Shown: positions 13,917-24,715 of the stretch, piece by piece
Layout of the letters: every line of letters starts with the position of its first letter
Position numbering within the stretch: the stretch's first letter is position 1
Made by a program: the position numbers and the translations under genes
Source: Rubrivivax sp.
GTDB lineage: Bacteria > Pseudomonadota > Gammaproteobacteria > Burkholderiales > Burkholderiaceae_C
Direction of reading: 5' to 3'
Assembly (NCBI GenBank): GCA_019635285.1
Contig: JAHBZS010000038.1
Location: 1 to 46,403 of the forward strand
DNA: 46,403 nucleotides
Notes under the pieces: model-generated
What the model saw: the letters and a program-made list of their open reading frames with translations, nothing else
What the model was told of the DNA's origin: nothing
Databases searched by the model: none

Positions 13917-14501
13917 ATGAAACAGACATCGGACGGACTGTTCCAGCACCCCGGGCTGCGCCGCTTCCTGATCAAGGCGCGGCTGCCGCTGTTCATCGTG
14001 GTGCTGCTGCTGGTGGCGCCCTTCGTGCGCCGCGAATGGCTGCTGGCCGGCTTCGTGGTGTCGATGGTCGGCGAGTTCATCCAGATCTGGTGCTTCGCGT
14101 CGCTGGACAAAAACGCCACGCTGACCATCCGCGGCCCCTACACCATGGTGCGCAACCCGATGTACCTGGGGCGCTTCTTCATCCCGCTGGGCTTTCTGAT
14201 GCTGCTGGGCCAGTGGTGGCTGCTGCTCGCGTATGCGGTGATCTACTGGCTGTACATGGACGCGCGCGTGCAGCGCGAGGAAGCGCACCTGAAGCCGATC
14301 TTCGGCGCGCCCTACGAAGCCTATTGCGCGCAGGTGCGGCGCTTCGTGCCCGGCTGGCCGCTGCGCGGCACCCCGGTCGCCTACTGGAACTGGACCCTGT
14401 TTTCGCAGAACAACGCCGGGCGCAACCTGGTGGCCACGCTGATCGCCTGGGCGCTGATGGCCGCCTGGACGCTGTGGGGCGCACCGGCACTGCGCGGCTG
14501 A
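13917..14501 (+). CDS. Isoprenylcysteine carboxyl methyltransferase-like membrane protein
   Basis: A 194-residue integral membrane protein with about five helices. It has the ICMT/PEMT family signature: GPYTMVRNPMYLGRF for S-adenosylmethionine binding and the downstream REEAHLKPIFGAPYEAYCAQVRRFVPG block. Family members methylate lipids or carboxylates at the membrane surface; bacterial substrates are mostly unknown. Position between an LPS-kinase-like gene and a WS/DGAT acyltransferase suggests an envelope or lipid role, which is inference. Start ATG follows a TAG stop by four bases. Confidence 0.85.
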   Translation: MKQTSDGLFQHPGLRRFLIKARLPLFIVVLLLVAPFVRREWLLAGFVVSMVGEFIQIWCFASLDKNATLTIRGPYTMVRNPMYLGRFFIPLGFLMLLGQWWLLLAYAVIYWLYMDARVQREEAHLKPIFGAPYEAYCAQVRRFVPGWPLRGTPVAYWNWTLFSQNNAGRNLVATLIAWALMAAWTLWGAPALRG

Positions 14502-14515
14502 AGGAGACGAGTGCA

Positions 14516-15997
14516 ATGAGCAGCAGCATGCGCCTGAACCCGCTGGACGCGGCATGGATCATGACCGAGTCGCGGGCCACGCCCAACCACGTCGGCGGGT
14601 TGCTGATCTTCAGCCTGCCCGAAGGCGCGCCGCGCGACGTCCTGCGCCGGCTGATGCACGACTTCCGCACCTATCGCGGCTTCACTGCGCCGTGGAACCG
14701 GCGGCTGAAGTACGCCTTCAACCTGAACCCGATTCCCGAGTGGGTCGAGGACGACCGCATCGACCTGGAATACCACGTGCGCCACGCCGCGCTGCCCTGG
14801 CCGGGCGGCGAGCGCGAGCTGGGCGAGCTGGTCGGCCGGCTGCAGAGCACGCCGCTGGACCTGAGCCGCCCGCCGTGGGAATGCACGCTGATCGAAGGGC
14901 TGGAGCACAAGCGCTTTGCGCTGTTCGTGAAGATGCACCATTCGCTGATCGACGGCATCAGCGGCATGCGCATGCTGCAGCAGGCGATGGCCAGCGACCC
15001 GGCCAAGAGCCTGGCGCTGCCGCCCTTCTGGTCGGCCCCCGCCGGCACCCCCGCGCAGGCCCAGCGCCACGCCTCGGCGCCGACCATGGCCAACGTGATG
15101 GACGCCGCCGCCAAGGCGCTGCGCGGCCAGCTGCGCTCGGCGCCGCAGCTGCTGGCCGCCTTCGGCAAGATGCTGCGCCGCGTCGGCGAAAGCGGCGAGG
15201 GCATGACCCTGCCCTTCGACGCGCCGCTGTCGGTGCTGAACGGGCGCGTGCGCGAGAAGCGCCGCTTCGCCACGCAGCAGTTTCCGATGGCCCGGCTGCG
15301 CACGGTGGCCGATGCCGCCGGCTGCACGCTGAACGACGTGGTGCTGGCCATCTGCGGCGGCTCGCTGCGGCGCTTTCTGATGGAACGCGACAGCCTGCCG
15401 GACAAGTCGCTGACCGCGGGCATCCCGGTGTCGGTGCGGCCCAAGGACGACCAGGGCACCGGCAACGCCATCAGCTTCATCGTCGCCACGCTGGGCACCG
15501 ACATCGAAGGCGCGGCCGAGCGGCTGGACGCCATCCGCGCGTCGGTGCGCCATGCCAAGGCGCACGTGCAGAACCTGCCGCGCGAGGCGATGATGCAGTA
15601 CACCGTGCTGCTGATGGCGCCGACCATCGTCACCTTGCTCAGCGGCATCGGCGGGCGCACGCGGCCGATGTTCAACATCACCATCTCCAACGTGCCCGGC
15701 CCGGACAAGCCGCTGTACTTCCGCGGCGCGCGGCTGGAGGCCATCTACCCGGCGTCGATCGTCACGCACGGCCAGGCGCTGAACATCACCTGCGAGAGCT
15801 ACGCCGGCTTCATGGACTTCGGCTTCACCGGCTGCCATTCGTCGGTGCCCAGCCTGCAGAAGCTGGCGGTGTATTCGGCCGAGGCGCTGGAAGAGCTGGA
15901 GGCGGCGATCCTGCCGAAGCCGGCCAAGGCGCGCAAGGCCGCGGCGGCCAAGCCGAAGGTGGCGGCGAAGCGCAAGCGCAGCGCGGCGGCGGCCTGA
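14516..15997 (+). CDS. Wax ester synthase/diacylglycerol acyltransferase (WS/DGAT)
   Basis: Acyl-CoA dependent acyltransferase of 493 residues that makes wax esters or triacylglycerol for storage. The catalytic HHxxxDG motif is HHSLIDG (141-147), and the PLD-like LDLSRPPWE and the second conserved block NDVVLAICGGSLRRFL are visible, as is the NVPGP segment near the C-terminus. The last 25 residues are an Ala/Lys tail (KAAAAKPKVAAKRKR), unusual for the family and of unknown purpose. AAGGAG (14501-14506) precedes the start. It ends the operon that begins with the phosphorylase. Confidence 0.92.
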   Translation: MSSSMRLNPLDAAWIMTESRATPNHVGGLLIFSLPEGAPRDVLRRLMHDFRTYRGFTAPWNRRLKYAFNLNPIPEWVEDDRIDLEYHVRHAALPWPGGERELGELVGRLQSTPLDLSRPPWECTLIEGLEHKRFALFVKMHHSLIDGISGMRMLQQAMASDPAKSLALPPFWSAPAGTPAQAQRHASAPTMANVMDAAAKALRGQLRSAPQLLAAFGKMLRRVGESGEGMTLPFDAPLSVLNGRVREKRRFATQQFPMARLRTVADAAGCTLNDVVLAICGGSLRRFLMERDSLPDKSLTAGIPVSVRPKDDQGTGNAISFIVATLGTDIEGAAERLDAIRASVRHAKAHVQNLPREAMMQYTVLLMAPTIVTLLSGIGGRTRPMFNITISNVPGPDKPLYFRGARLEAIYPASIVTHGQALNITCESYAGFMDFGFTGCHSSVPSLQKLAVYSAEALEELEAAILPKPAKARKAAAAKPKVAAKRKRSAAAA

Positions 15998-16008
15998 GCG
16001 GCGTACTC

Positions 16009-16060
16009 TGCCACCCGCTCGGGGCCCACGCCGCTCAACGCTGAGCGAAGGGTTGTGGCA
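16009..16060. terminator. Imperfect hairpin between convergent genes
   Basis: An outer stem TGCCAC/GTGGCA (16009-16014 with 16055-16060), a second pairing CGCTC/GAGCG (16016-16020 with 16043-16047) and an alternative inner stem CGCTCA-ACGC-TGAGCG (16032-16047). It lies between the WS/DGAT and vapC stops and could terminate both strands; no T-tract is seen. Confidence 0.35.
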
Positions 16061-16501
16061 TCAACTCGGCTGGATAAGCTCGAGGGCCCTCTTCCCGCCA
16101 GGCACGACCTCGGTAGCCAACTTTTGGTCCATGGTTGCCAAGCGCCCGCGTTTCGCATGAGCGAGCGCAAGAAGATAGCTATCCGTGACGCGCGAGTGGC
16201 TGGATAGCAATTCGGGTGCGAAGAACTCGGGGTCGGCAATGCTGAGGTCGTCGGGCCAGAACTTGTGACCGGCAAGGCCGCGAATCGCGGCCAGGGACTG
16301 GAGCACCACACTCGGCGGGCCGGGCGAGTTCGGGTACCTGGGATGCCCGATGATGCGTACGAGGCCGTTCTCGGTGAGCGGGCAAGTGGCAAAGCCTTTG
16401 CGCCCAACCCGGGCGAACCATTCGTGCGCCAGGTCGTGCTGGATGTGCGCCGGATCGACCAGGGCAATGAGGACGTTGACGTCCAACAGGTACACGGTCA
16501 C
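16061..16501 (-). CDS. vapC: VapC-type PIN-domain toxin
   Basis: A 146-residue PIN-domain ribonuclease. The acidic active site is complete: D7 in LLDVNVLIALVD, E44 in LTENGLVRI, D107 in VTDSYLLALA and D125 in ATMDQKL. These bind Mg2+ or Mn2+ and cut RNA, commonly tRNA or rRNA in this family. The ATG overlaps the stop of the antitoxin gene (ATGA), so both are made together. It is convergent with the WS/DGAT gene. GC content is somewhat lower than the flanking housekeeping genes, in line with a mobile module. Confidence 0.92.
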   Translation of the reverse strand: MTVYLLDVNVLIALVDPAHIQHDLAHEWFARVGRKGFATCPLTENGLVRIIGHPRYPNSPGPPSVVLQSLAAIRGLAGHKFWPDDLSIADPEFFAPELLSSHSRVTDSYLLALAHAKRGRLATMDQKLATEVVPGGKRALELIQPS

Positions 16502-16731
16502 GGCAGTTCGTCGCGCAACTGGTTCACCAGTTCCGGAGTGACCGGAGCCGCGCCGCGGCGGCTGGGCAGCAGTGGCACGCCGTTGCGTTCTGCTCGTGCC
16601 GAGCGCGGCCCGCGCGTCAAGCCTTGCCGCGCCAGCGTGGAGATGACTTCTCCGACGCTCTTGCGATCGCGCTCGGCGAGATGCTTGGCGGCAGCAAGGA
16701 CGTCGTCGTCGATGGCGAGGGTAGTGCGCAT
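16498..16731 (-). CDS. vapB: VapB-type ribbon-helix-helix antitoxin
   Basis: A 77-residue antitoxin. The N-terminus MRTTLAIDDDVLAAAKHLAE and SVGEVISTLARQGL form the ribbon-helix-helix DNA-binding domain; the C-terminus (VTPELVNQLRDELP) would bind the toxin. The start at 16731 is chosen because the fold begins there and an AGGAG site lies six bases upstream (16738-16742 on the complementary strand); an in-frame ATG at 16764 would only add residues that lie over the operator. It overlaps vapC by four bases. Confidence 0.88.
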   Translation of the reverse strand: MRTTLAIDDDVLAAAKHLAERDRKSVGEVISTLARQGLTRGPRSARAERNGVPLLPSRRGAAPVTPELVNQLRDELP

Positions 16732-16741
16732 GATGGACTCC

Positions 16742-16756
16742 TGATGCGAAGCATCA
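16742..16756. promoter_or_regulatory. Palindromic operator candidate of vapBC
   Basis: TGATGC-GAA-GCATCA, a perfect 6-bp inverted repeat just upstream of vapB, followed by further ATGATG-like half-sites out to about 16768. RHH antitoxins bind such repeats to repress their own promoter. Confidence 0.5.
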
Positions 16757-16760
16757 TACA

Positions 16761-17579
16761 TCACGCATCACTTCTCGGGCGCGCTGCGATGGGGTTCTGA
16801 CGCCTGACGTTCGAGCTGCAGGACCGCAGCAACCACAACAAGGCCCAAGACAGCTTGACCTTCTCCCACTGATCACCCTTGCTCCGATAGCCTCCTGTTT
16901 CTTCGCTCTTCTCCGACCGAGCAAAGACAAAGTCGAGTTCATACTCATCGGACCCCGAGGCAAGGTGGTCGCGAGACTTCGGCTCTTCCAGCCCATAGAT
17001 TTCTAGGCGTTTCCGCATTTCCTCGTTTTCGGATTTCAAACGAAGTACGTCATCAGCGGATGGAAGAGCAGCCAGAACGTCGGCACGCAACCAACCGGGG
17101 CGAGGATGCTGCTTTCGCAGTTGAGTCAGACTTCTACTGACTTTGGCGCCGAGATCCGCAGGTGAAGAATAGAACTTACATAGGCGCCCTTTAACCAGCT
17201 CTCGAAAGGCTTCGAGCTTCTTAACGCGACTGGCTTGCTGTTCGACAACCTTGCTTGGAAGCCGCGACGGGTCATCGACAAGAAAGCCGATGACAGGCTT
17301 ACCGGTTTCAACGGCGTAGCGATACTCCATCTCAGTGAAGCTAAGCCCGCTGTCCTTTGACACCGAACCATATCGTCCGCCGACGATAACTATGTAGTAG
17401 TCGGATTCATCGATTACTCGTTTGATCCATTCCCATTGAGAGTCGTTCGCTGCCGGGAATAGCTCCATGCCGGCTGGCATGCACTCAAGCTCGAGGAGTG
17501 CTTGCATTACCTCGCTTCGCTCTTCGACGAGGTCTACATATGTCGAGCTTACGAATACTTGGTGCCTTTGCTCTGGCAT
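16761..17579 (-). CDS. DUF4062 protein, probably 3'-truncated, in a gene cassette
   Basis: The first 170 residues match the DUF4062 domain well: HQVFVSSTYVDLVEERSEV, AGMELFPAANDSQWEWIK, YYIVIVGGRYGS, FTEMEYRYAVETGKP and KLCKFY-like LCKFYSS. DUF4062 is a TIR/SEFIR-like fold found in predicted NTP- or NAD-linked defence proteins. A coiled coil follows (about 175-195). Near WEKVKLSW, where family members go on with a longer C-terminal part, the frame instead reads a hairpin region and vapB-upstream DNA, giving a tail (ARPRSDA) unlike the family. GC and codon use are clearly lower than in neighbours, a sign of transfer. The start is 26 nt after an attC core site. Confidence 0.75.
   Translation of the reverse strand: MPEQRHQVFVSSTYVDLVEERSEVMQALLELECMPAGMELFPAANDSQWEWIKRVIDESDYYIVIVGGRYGSVSKDSGLSFTEMEYRYAVETGKPVIGFLVDDPSRLPSKVVEQQASRVKKLEAFRELVKGRLCKFYSSPADLGAKVSRSLTQLRKQHPRPGWLRADVLAALPSADDVLRLKSENEEMRKRLEIYGLEEPKSRDHLASGSDEYELDFVFARSEKSEETGGYRSKGDQWEKVKLSWALLWLLRSCSSNVRRQNPIAARPRSDA
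16802..16844 (-). other. Degenerate attC-like hairpin at DUF4062 3' end
   Basis: On the minus strand the stretch begins GCCTTGTTG and ends AACGTCAGGC. Outer GCCT pairs with AGGC, and GTTGCTGC pairs with GCAGC(TCG)AAC around a short loop. The core reads GTCAGGC instead of GTTRRRY. It could be a decayed attC of the DUF4062 cassette; the match is weak. Confidence 0.3.
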
Positions 17580-17604
17580 TGGATGCTCCGATTGGCTGCG
17601 AGGC

Positions 17605-17690
17605 GGCTAACGTAGAGCTAACGCGCGCGCAGCGGCAGGGGGCACCCTGGCCTGCCGTTGCGCGTCCGGTTCAGCGACAGTTTTAGGCCT
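17605..17690 (-). other. Integron attC recombination site
   Basis: On the minus strand the order is R'' GGCCTAAAAC, L'' CTGAACCGG, a long arm, L' GTTAGCTC, spacer, R' GTTAGCC (17611-17605). The arms pair as CGGCAGG/CCTGCCG (17633-17639 with 17651-17657) and GCGCGCA/TTGCGCG, and then CTAAC with CTGAAC, leaving one unpaired G, the hallmark extrahelical base of attC. The stop codon of the upstream membrane-protein gene lies inside R'', as is normal for cassettes. Confidence 0.85.
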
Positions 17691-18159
17691 CAATGCCTCG
17701 CGCTGCTTGGACATACGATACATACAGGAGCACAACCAAGAGCACCGCGAAGGCATTAACGCCGACAGTTAGGACCTCCTCAGGCTTTCCATAGGACCAA
17801 CGAAAGCCGCTACCCAGGTACGCAGCCCATCCCCCGCCGAGCCCCCCAGGGCCGAAGCGCAAGTAGAGCCACGCGCCAAACCCGCAGGAGGTAGTGACGC
17901 TGAGAAGTGATGAGCTGAAGGCGGGGACCTGGGCCGCCCAGAACCACATGGACCTCTGCTGCCACATTGGGGTATTACGGAGAGCCTGGATACCCGTCCA
18001 TGCACCGTAGAGGTACAAGACAAAGGTTGCGAAGAGGAACAGTTCGCCAGGAAATCCCATCCCGCCGCCCTGAATCAAAACCGGAAGCATGGAGATTAGG
18101 GCGGCTACGCTGCCAAGTGCCGATAGCCAACCAACGACGGGTCGCAAAGAACGGTGCAC
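17683..18159 (-). CDS. Small integral membrane protein of a gene cassette
   Basis: A 158-residue protein I cannot assign to a family. It has four hydrophobic helices (about 11-30, 38-60, 68-92 and 132-152) and short loops, so it should sit in the inner membrane. GTG at 18159 is taken as start; it lies nine bases after a core site GTTAGGC, and its TAA stop falls inside the attC R'' box, which is the usual layout of an integron cassette. Lone membrane proteins of unknown role are common cassette cargo. GC is lower than in the chromosomal neighbours. Confidence 0.7.
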   Translation of the reverse strand: MHRSLRPVVGWLSALGSVAALISMLPVLIQGGGMGFPGELFLFATFVLYLYGAWTGIQALRNTPMWQQRSMWFWAAQVPAFSSSLLSVTTSCGFGAWLYLRFGPGGLGGGWAAYLGSGFRWSYGKPEEVLTVGVNAFAVLLVVLLYVSYVQAARGIEA

Positions 18160-18167
18160 TTCTTGAC

Positions 18168-18174
18168 GCCTAAC
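18168..18174 (-). other. Integron core site (GTTAGGC) at cassette 5' boundary
   Basis: GTTAGGC on the minus strand fits the GTTRRRY consensus exactly and sits just before the membrane-protein gene. The bases before it (GTGAAAACAC) recall the end of attI sites, but no full attI or second attC could be defined in the 190 bases upstream and no integrase gene is present. Confidence 0.6.
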
Positions 18175-18354
18175 GTGTTTTCACCCACATGATTGCAGCA
18201 CATGCGCGCTCGGGGACAAGGCGTGCCGCCGCAACTGTTTGGGGGCGCAACTTGATGGGCCAACCGGCCTGCAGCAGCAGCGCTGGGGGCCAGCGCCCAT
18301 CGGTACGCTGTGGCCGCGCACGCAGCGAGTTTTGAAGGCCGGCCGCCAACCGCC

Positions 18355-19931
18355 TCAGATGCGCCGTTCCTGCCCCACCCAGTAAGCCTCACGCAGCAGC
18401 CGCTTCTGCAGTTTGCCGGTCTCGGTGCGCGGCATGTCGCTGCGGAATTCAATGGACTTCGGCACTTTGTAGCCGGCCAGTGCGGCGCGGCAGTGTGCGC
18501 TCAGCGCCTCGCGCAGCGCAGCGCAGCGTCGGCCGTGTGGCCCGGCGGCGGCTGCACGATGGCCTTGACCTCCTCGCCGAACTCGGCGTTGGGCACGCCG
18601 ATCACCGCCACGTCCTGCACCGCCGGGTGCGCGGCCAGCACCGACTCGATCTCGGCCGGGTAGATATTCACGCCGCCGGAGATGATCATGTCGATCTTGC
18701 GGTCGGTCAGGAACAGGTAGCCCTGCTCGTCCAGCCAGCCGACGTCGCCGGTGGTGAACAGCGCATCGCCCTGGTGGGCGGCCGCGGTCTTGGCGGCGTC
18801 GTTGTGGTACTGCAGTCGCGCACCGCTGCGGCTTTGCATGTAGATGGTGCCCTGCTCGCCGGCCGGCGCCTCGCTGCCGTCGTCGCGCAGGATGCGCACT
18901 TCGGTCTGGAAGGTGGCGCGGCCCACCGACGCCGGCCGCTGCAGCCATTCTTCGGCGCCGATGCCGCTGACGATGCCGCCTTCGGTGGACCCGTAGTACT
19001 CGTGGATGCAGGGCCCCCACCAGCCAATCATGTCGCGCTTGACCTGCGGTGAGCAGGGCGCCGCGCCGTGCCAGACGCGCACCAGCGACTGCCCGCCGAA
19101 GGCGCGCCTGGTCGCGTCGTCCAGGCGCAGCAGGCGGATGAACTGCGTGGGCACCAGGTGCACGTTGGTGATGCGGTGCTGGTCGATCAGCGCCAGCGTG
19201 TGCGCCGCATCGAAGCGCTGGCACATCACCACGCGCAGCCCGGCCAGCAGCGGCTGGAAGGCCCAGGCGTACTGCGCCGAGTGGTAGTAGGGCCCGCACA
19301 GCAGCGTGCTGCCGTCGGGCGGCAGCTGCAGGTGGGCCACCAGGTTGTCGGCCATGGGCTGCAAGGTGGCGATCGGCTGCGGCACGCCTTGGTTCTTGAG
19401 CACGCCCTTCGGCCGGCCGGTGGTGCCCGAGGTGTAGAACATCGGCCCGCCGGCCTGCTGGTCTGCCGGCTCGGACGCGTCGGGCTGCGCGGCGATCAGC
19501 GCCTCGAAGTCGGTGAAGCCTGCCGGGCAGACGTCGGGCGCCAGCGCGATGCAGGCGCGCAGCCTGGCGCCGGCGGCCGGCGAGCGTTGCAGCGCCGCGG
19601 CGGCGGTGGCCGCGAACTGGCTGTCGGTCAGCACGCCCACCGCGCCCGAATCGGCCAGCACATAGGCCAGTTCGTCGACGCTGAAGTGCCAGTTGATGGG
19701 CACGTAGAACAGGCCGCAGTGGATGGCGGCGGCCATCAGCTCGAACACGCCGCGGCGGTTGCCGGCGAACAGTGCAATGCGCTCGCCGGGCTGCAAGCCC
19801 GCCGCGCGCAGCGCGCGGACCAGGCGGTTGACGCGGGCGTCCAGCTCGGCCCAGCTGCACTGGCCGTGTTCGTCGATCAATGCCGGGGCGTCGGCCAGGC
19901 GACGGGCGGCGCGGGCGGTCATCAAGGCCAC
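18355..19931 (-). pseudogene. AMP-dependent acyl-CoA ligase, frameshifted near the C-terminus
   Basis: A fatty-acid/carboxylate-CoA ligase of the ANL family. The P-loop motif YTSGTTGRPKG, the YGSTEGG motif and TGDVGWLDEQGYLFLTDRKID are intact in the main frame. That frame stops at 18501, while the expected C-terminal lid, including PRTETGKLQKRLLRE with the catalytic lysine, continues in another frame to 18355. The switch lies in GCGCA repeated three times (18511-18525); taking out one 5-base unit restores a single frame of about 523 residues. The lesion removes the acyl-adenylate lysine, so the product is probably inactive, unless the unit number varies or the read is wrong. Confidence 0.85.
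18511..18528 (+). repeat. Pentanucleotide tandem repeat (GCGCA x3)
   Basis: Three GCGCA units plus GCG inside the acyl-CoA ligase gene, exactly where the reading frame breaks. Five-base units shift the frame whenever one is gained or lost. Confidence 0.8.
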
Positions 19932-19939
19932 GGCGGCCC

Positions 19940-20098
19940 CTAGCGCGACATCGGGTCGCCGCAGGGCACCCAGGACTTGCCGTCGAAGCGCTGCAGCCGC
20001 AGCGTGCCGTAGATCTCGTCGTCGGGCGCGGTGGTCAGGGTCACACCGGGCAGCATCACCGGCGTGCCGTAGTCCTTCAGGCTGAGGAAGGGGTGCAT
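19940..20098 (-). pseudogene. C-terminal remnant of a LivK-like branched-chain amino acid binding protein
   Basis: Only 52 residues remain (MHPFLSLKDYG to SWVPCGDPMSR). The pattern LPGVTLTTAPDDE, then LRLQRFDGKSWVPCGD, resembles the last strand of periplasmic LivK-type binding proteins, which typically read LPGI..NTSPTD and RFDGK.WVPFG. Nothing upstream resembles the rest of such a protein; the M14 peptidase stop follows within 27 bases. It lies directly before the acyl-CoA ligase gene on the same strand, as binding-protein genes do in Burkholderiales Liv operons. A short intact gene of another kind is the alternative. Confidence 0.5.
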
Positions 20099-20124
20099 CA
20101 CGTTGTCGCCGTCGCGCCGGGCGC

Positions 20125-23986: not shown

Positions 23987-24715
23987 ATGCGCGAAGCCGA
24001 CCCGAAGATGCTGCAACCGTTGTGCGAAGACCTGGCGCTGGCGCTGCGCGCCGCCGCGCACCACGGCCTGAGCGAAGGCGTATGCAACCACTTCAGCGTG
24101 GCGCTGCCCGACGACAGCCGCCGCTTCCTGATCAACCCGCGCGGGCTGCACTGGAGCGAGATCGGCCCCGAGGACATCGTGCTCGTCGACGAGCAGGGCA
24201 CGGTGCTGCAGGGCCGGCACCGCGTGGAGCCGACGGCGATGTTCATCCATGCCGCCACGCACCGCATCACCGGCCAGGCGGTGGTGCTGCACACGCACAT
24301 GCCCTATGCCACCGCGCTGACGCTGACCACCGACCGCGCGCTGGATACCCGCGCCAGCCAGGGCGCGATGCGCTTCCACGGCCGCATCGGCATCGACGCC
24401 GACTACAACGGCCTGGCGCTGGACTGGGCCGAGGGCGAACGCATCGCGCGCGCCATGCAGGGCAAGGACGTGGCCTTCCTGGCCAACCACGGGGTCATCG
24501 TCTGCGGCGCGAGCATCGCGCACGCCTACGACGACCTGTACTACCTGGAGCGTGTGTGCATGCACCAGGTGCTGGCGATGAGCACCGGCCGCCCGCTGGC
24601 GCGCGTCAGCGAAAAACTCTCGGCGCACGTGGCGGCGCAGATCCAGGGCGAGCGCGAGCAGTCCGACCTGTTCTTCGAGGCGCTGCGGCGCCTGCTGCCG
24701 CCGCCGCAGCGCTGA
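23987..24715 (+). CDS. Class II aldolase/adducin family protein
   Basis: A 242-residue enzyme of the L-fuculose-phosphate aldolase/adducin fold. Metal-binding histidines lie in LHTHMPYATAL and LANHGVIVCG, and the GVCNHFSVALP and FLINPRGLHW segments form the phosphate-binding face. Members cleave sugar phosphates or act as decarboxylases or epimerases; without an Arg/Lys check of the pocket the substrate is open. A good GGAGAC ribosome binding site lies eight bases upstream. It is convergent with glcB, with only three bases between stops. Confidence 0.9.
   Translation: MREADPKMLQPLCEDLALALRAAAHHGLSEGVCNHFSVALPDDSRRFLINPRGLHWSEIGPEDIVLVDEQGTVLQGRHRVEPTAMFIHAATHRITGQAVVLHTHMPYATALTLTTDRALDTRASQGAMRFHGRIGIDADYNGLALDWAEGERIARAMQGKDVAFLANHGVIVCGASIAHAYDDLYYLERVCMHQVLAMSTGRPLARVSEKLSAHVAAQIQGEREQSDLFFEALRRLLPPPQR

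Follow-up and report, generated by a model that had tools for sequence, protein, structure and literature searches.

Cassettes and attC sites between a wax ester synthase gene and an acyl-CoA ligase gene

The window, i.e. the whole 46,403-nt stretch of Rubrivivax DNA that was analysed, lies on contig C32 of a 4.9 Mb genome assembled in 89 contigs. Between a WS/DGAT gene and an acyl-CoA ligase gene, its minus strand carries a series of small genes that are interspersed with complete or partial attC sites. An overview is given in Table 1.

Table 1 Features of the cassette region and its neighbouring genes in the window (left and right as read on the minus strand)
Feature	Position	Strand	Basis
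Left-hand neighbour: acyl-CoA ligase split over two frames	18355..19931	minus	AMP-binding, AMP-binding_C
Left end GTGAAAACACGTTAGGC: attI-type crossover (putative attI) joined to the cassette 1 core	18168..18184	minus	motif comparison
Cassette 1 gene: orphan helical, hydrophobic protein, 158 aa (P0001)	17683..18159	minus	ORF, hydropathy, structure model, no Pfam match
attC of cassette 1, complete	17605..17688	minus	R1 37.5 bits; paired arms
Cassette 2: DUF4062 gene, 3' part missing; ORF continues through attC remnant	16761..17579	minus	PF13271 98.4 bits
Putative 3' half of cassette 2 attC: AGCTCGAACGTCAGGC, core GTCAGGC	16802..16817	minus	one mismatch to genus attC end
Cassette 3: vapB antitoxin ORF	16498..16764	minus	VapB_antitoxin and RHH_1 matches, both below cut-offs
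Cassette 3: vapC PIN-domain toxin ORF	16061..16501	minus	TIGR00028 99.5 bits, cut-off 73.6
Shrunken attC of cassette 3: R''-L'' half and short hairpin	16024..16059	minus	motif, fold
Right-hand neighbour: WS/DGAT wax ester synthase gene	14036..15997 (ORF listed; true start probably near 14531)	plus	WS_DGAT_cat 242 bits

Upstream of the cassette 1 gene, the minus strand has a GTTAGGC core at 18168-18174, and the GTG start of the 158-codon ORF follows 8 bases past this core. The TAA stop (17683-17685) falls within the R'' box GCCTAAA (17682-17688). The L'' box, CGCTGAAC, pairs with the L' box GTTAGC and contains one extra base, which is extrahelical. R' is GTTAGCC (17605-17611) and fits the GTTRRRY type, while R'' is imperfect with respect to RYYYAAC / GTTRRRY pairing, two of the seven pairs being broken.

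To score this site, the covariance model R1 was built here from 26 aligned attC sites with the window excluded. Candidates for training were obtained by an arm-pairing scan of integrons from the same genus and order, and the structure of the model consists of the R arms, the L arms and an inner stem. On the window, R1 scores the attC of cassette 1 at 37.5 bits (E 5.3e-7) and the runner-up at 15.5 bits; searched against the whole genome, the site has an E of 5.6e-5. Elsewhere in the genome, five sites on contig C2 and one on contig C27 (31.1 bits) are found, followed by matches of at most 16.2 bits. The C2 sites are a limited control, as one of the five was part of the training set and that at 97288-97357 is the attC of this cassette's duplicate; the three that are independent of training reach 42-59 bits. 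An Rfam search returned three matches, each under its gathering score. By itself, folding energy is weak evidence for an attC site, as it is not unusual compared with shuffled sequences (top strand: z -0.32; bottom strand: z -1.42, with 18 of 200 shuffles folding equally well). The minimum-energy fold of the bottom strand has the nested attC shape. The first-pass annotation of this DNA had recognised attC and cassette grammar on the minus strand and had proposed a covariance model as a check. Both the reading of the boxes and the R1 score bear it out, and the observation of a genuine attC site with its cassette is confirmed.

The cassette 1 protein, P0001, has no Pfam match. No relatives were found in the 80 other genomes of the genus or in plasmids, and none of 71 candidate stretches from genome_contigs was confirmed. 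A search of 398 further genomes of the order gave four weak matches to P0001 (E 0.002-0.004, over 25-66 residues), which were taken as chance, three of the four containing internal stops. P0001 thus appears to be without a convincing relative, and no homologue residing in a cassette was found for it in these searches. Its hydropathy profile has three peaks and its single-sequence structure model is helical and poor (pLDDT 57). The earlier description as a four-helix membrane protein is thus only roughly supported.

The ATG of the DUF4062 gene lies 25 bases past R'. A 363-aa homologue is encoded on contig C8 of genome G061, a contig of cassettes, where it starts just past a GTTAGGC core and stops within the next R''. 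The window DNA aligns with this cassette over 17638-17068. When the translations are compared by reading, the window protein matches the homologue to about residue 238 and then enters AGCTCGAACGTCAGGC. With up to three mismatches to the 3' end of the genus attC allowed, the window contains no other match (0.22 expected). We read AGCTCGAACGTCAGGC as the 3' half of an attC, the 5' half of which would have been deleted along with the end of the gene.

The next two ORFs are predicted to form a VapBC toxin-antitoxin pair, in which a small VapB ORF precedes the PIN-domain VapC; the probable vapB start is the ATG at 16731 (by reading). A homologous vapBC on contig C33 of genome G028 has an attC on either side. 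The local alignment between the window and this cassette extends from CTCGAACGTCAGGC (16815) to 16040, which corresponds to a stretch from the core site into the R''-L'' half. Past the vapC stop, CCACAACCCTTCGCTCA is kept at 16042-16058 with three mismatches to the R''-L'' motif. At this stringency the window contains two matches (the other at 24069), compared to 0.07 expected. R1 gives no meaningful score on the remnant (3.5 bits at best). The vapBC on contig C74 of genome G021 shares 78% DNA identity with the window and has a degenerate core upstream; the arm scan finds no attC downstream of it, where the locus is at a contig end. Among 14 other copies in the genus, 12 are without a core just upstream (by eye). 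Two of these 12, the non-cassette vapBC of genomes G104 and G029 (76-77% DNA identity), are closer to the window than the cassette copy of G028 (69%), so that the cassette reading of vapBC rests on its edges and not on its nearest relatives.

The single cassette that had been described at first thus has to be extended to three, as the DUF4062 gene and vapBC are also cassettes, with half-deleted attCs. Among the papers available for word searches, none joined DUF4062 with an integron, and none joined VapBC with integron cassettes or a chromosomal integron.

Flanking regions and the integrase of the genome

The cassette segment has a lower GC content (54-65%; DUF4062 54%, P0001 59%, vapBC 65%) than the flanking WS/DGAT and ligase genes (71-72%). 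In the ligase, the AMP-binding domain and the first half of AMP-binding_C are encoded in one frame and the second half in another. The frame break is located around 18522-18537 in a GCGCA-like repeat and reflects either a pseudogene or a sequencing error. Between the ligase and an M14 peptidase gene, positions 19935-20118 resemble, by eye, the 3' end of a gene for a substrate-binding protein.

The comparison with close relatives that the first-pass annotation had suggested was possible for one of them, genome G022, which is without the segment beside its WS/DGAT gene. On its contig C440, the WS/DGAT gene (90% DNA identity) and the M14 peptidase gene (88%) are separated by approximately 1 kb that holds a TetR-like ORF (by reading) as well as small ORFs. 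This stretch has neither vapBC nor the cassettes nor the ligase, and the entire block 16000-20118 is missing there, as judged from this one relative. The M14 region has no match in the other WS/DGAT loci that were compared. No orthologous left flank was found for the ligase in the genus, where the best match shows about 68% identity over about 0.85 kb and shorter ones up to 83%. Since the ligase is absent from G022 and has only distant matches in the genus, the array may have arrived with a larger block.

The absence of intI from the 46 kb, as claimed earlier, holds: contig C32 has no TIGR02249 match at E up to 1, and no trace of an integrase was found beside the array. The locus therefore lacks the adjacent intI of a complete integron. 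A search of the genome, likewise proposed at first, locates intI on contig C2 (104927-105874; TIGR02249, 453.6 bits), with an attI and the five-attC array on the upstream side of the gene. In the C2 array (L029 9000-16901, G000:C2), the same cassette is found at both ends with transposase-like sequence in between. The attC on C27 (54122-54184, minus strand; L250 3123-3185) is far from the C2 integron and near a contig end.

Across the genus, intI is found above the curated cut-off in 64 of 81 genomes. attC matches at E up to 0.001 are present in 65 of 81, with site counts that represent lower bounds owing to strict filters and at most 43 candidates scored per genome. R. gelatinosus is among the species surveyed for SOS control of intI, according to the available part of PMC3108266.

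The left end and attI-type sites in the genus

Ahead of the first core, the window reads GTGAAAACAC. In related integrons, the cores of the sites upstream of intI are preceded by AACAC or AAAACAC. A survey of 80 intI loci gave a start for 79, and a GTTAGRY core within 1300 bp was found for 43, only 13 of which have AACAC ahead of it. In the window, a single one of 31 GTTRRRY cores is preceded by AACAC, namely the core at 18168-18174.

The motif AAACACGTTAGRC has 34 matches, which are spread over 16 of 81 genomes with 14 in a single genome, compared to two for the reversed control. The copy in the window is the only match in its own genome. Of the 33 others, 25 have a downstream attC on the same strand within reach and one has a partial attC at a contig end. 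The remaining seven are located at most 720 bp from a contig end, with no attC found; four of them are on contigs with intI. The crossover motif is thus nearly confined to integrons, which speaks against a secondary-site (attG) insertion. In that scenario, IntI would have placed the cassettes directly into a chromosomal site that ended by chance in AAAACACG and was never an attI, and the cassettes would have decayed afterwards. Three consecutive cassettes would moreover require repeated insertion at one site. On the other side, the left flank upstream of AAAACACG could not be aligned with any of 43 attI-type elements, themselves highly divergent, and an active-looking intI is present in the genome. 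Insertion of cassettes at attG sites by IntI1 has been reported (PMC12901181, PMC12444791, in the parts of both papers that were available). The genome's own attI, furthermore, ends in ATAACACG and not in GAAAACACG, which counts against an attI at the left end. On balance, we consider attG insertion unlikely; the left end is more plausibly, at about two in three, the remnant of an attI than a random secondary site.

attI-type cores, AAACACGTTAGGC, are also scattered inside cassette arrays. Genome G103 has 14 of them (L241-L247), 11 of which lie exactly 180 or 215 bp past the preceding GTTAGRY core, and R1 does not score these units as attC. On contig C25 of genome G065 (L248), two copies are 159 bp apart. 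The units in both genomes look like gene-less units ending in attI. The left flank of the window was considered as a unit of this kind, the distance from the core to the ligase end being similar (about 180 bp), and was rejected, as it has no preceding core and no alignment. A reading of the left end as an orphan attI that is still usable, with the attI-type sites of Rubrivivax detached from the integrase and scattered through arrays as gene-less units, seems quite improbable to us. One integrase would then serve many insertion points in trans, and the window would hold such a point stranded in the chromosome.

In some genomes, the attI-type site is located 600-1100 bp from the intI start. At many attI-type sites (L193, L194, L199, L201, L212, L213), a similar small coding region is seen by eye to end upstream.

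Origin of the locus and comparison with known systems

The region 16024-18184 is best explained as what is left of an integron cassette array in a Rubrivivax genome, with an attI-type end, three cassettes in the same orientation and no adjacent integrase; we assign this reading a probability of roughly 0.65. In its favour are, from comparison, the covariance-scored attC, the DUF4062 and VapBC cassette relatives, the half-attCs, and an intI that is absent here and present with its array on C2. The attI-type left end, the lower GC content and the absence from G022 also count for it. Against it, only one attC is scored, and those of cassettes 2 and 3 rest on short motifs, the second of which has its further match at 24069. 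The unaligned left flank, the different end of the genome's own attI, the small share of intI loci with AACAC (13 of 43), the closer non-cassette vapBC and the lack of any trace of intI found beside the array count against it as well.

In such a history, IntI would have captured the cassettes by recombining attI with attC, each newcomer entering on the attI side, and the integrase would later have been lost or left behind. The end of the DUF4062 gene and half of the attC of that cassette would have gone in one deletion, and a second would have taken most of the VapBC attC. With insertion at an attI on the left, the most recent arrival would be P0001 and the earliest vapBC. This order fits the states of the attCs (complete, half and shrunken, respectively), although the deletions may be unrelated to age. 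With no intI close by, any recombination would depend on the C2 enzyme, and cassette 1 alone keeps both recombination partners. IntI from C2 could thus remain able to excise this cassette by attI x attC recombination, whereas cassettes 2 and 3 would be fixed. We infer this excision and the order of events, as we do the attI identity of the left end. The toxin-antitoxin pair may help to hold the debris in place.

Alternatively, the array could have been cut from a larger integron array by rearrangement or acquired in a block that included the broken acyl-CoA ligase; the left core would then be an internal site of the parent array and not the first attI. The lack of 16000-20118, including the ligase, at this place in G022 and the attI-type cores inside arrays in G103 and G065 would agree with this, but no orthologous left flank was found and the ligase matches in the genus are distant only, so that we regard this origin as doubtful. 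A chance resemblance in an old vertical segment, with no integron remnant at all, would be in line with the ordinary folding energy of the attC and is hardly credible given its genome-wide E, the cassette relatives on its far side and the absence of the segment from G022.

As a relic of a cassette array, the locus can be set beside systems already described. CALINs are usually called with at least two attC sites, as stated in the available text of PMC12444791. By this rule the locus is not a CALIN, as R1 detects one attC and two others are half-deleted; judged by what it contains, it is a decaying CALIN that has an attI-type end. The initial proposal of a CALIN or a secondary-site insertion can therefore be kept only in part: the count of attC sites falls short of the rule, an attI-type relic end is likelier, and the secondary site retains a minor share of the probability. 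Like a CALIN, the locus has cassettes in the same orientation and no adjacent intI, and the integrase encoded elsewhere in the genome could act on it in trans. Unlike a CALIN, it has one scored and two half-deleted attCs as well as an attI-like left end.

The locus is clear but fairly ordinary integron debris in the genome. It would represent a cassette array late in decay that is passed over by the two-attC rule. Markers for such relics could be an edge of attI type, half-attCs and the presence of cassette relatives in sister species, and the attI-type motif of the genus may offer a quick route to orphan integration points.

Integrase loss with stable residual arrays is described for Xanthomonas in the accessible part of PMC12444791. 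These residual integrons resemble the situation here in that an ancestral integron is widespread in the genus, the integrase was lost in a lineage-specific manner and leftover cassettes are stable. In Xanthomonas, however, intI is at a fixed locus (ilvD), whereas in the present genome intI is found on a contig other than that of the relic, which lies between the WS/DGAT and acyl-CoA ligase genes. A second likeness is to the truncated-attC and deltaattI cassettes of mobile integrons, in which, as far as the available text of PMC12901181 describes them, attC is pared to recognisable parts such as R''. In those cassettes, the attI remnant takes the place of the attC downstream of a resistance gene, whereas in the window it would be upstream of the first cassette and chromosomal. 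The deltaattI1 remnant AAACAAAGTTRRRY given in that text resembles the AAAACACGTTAGGC of the window.
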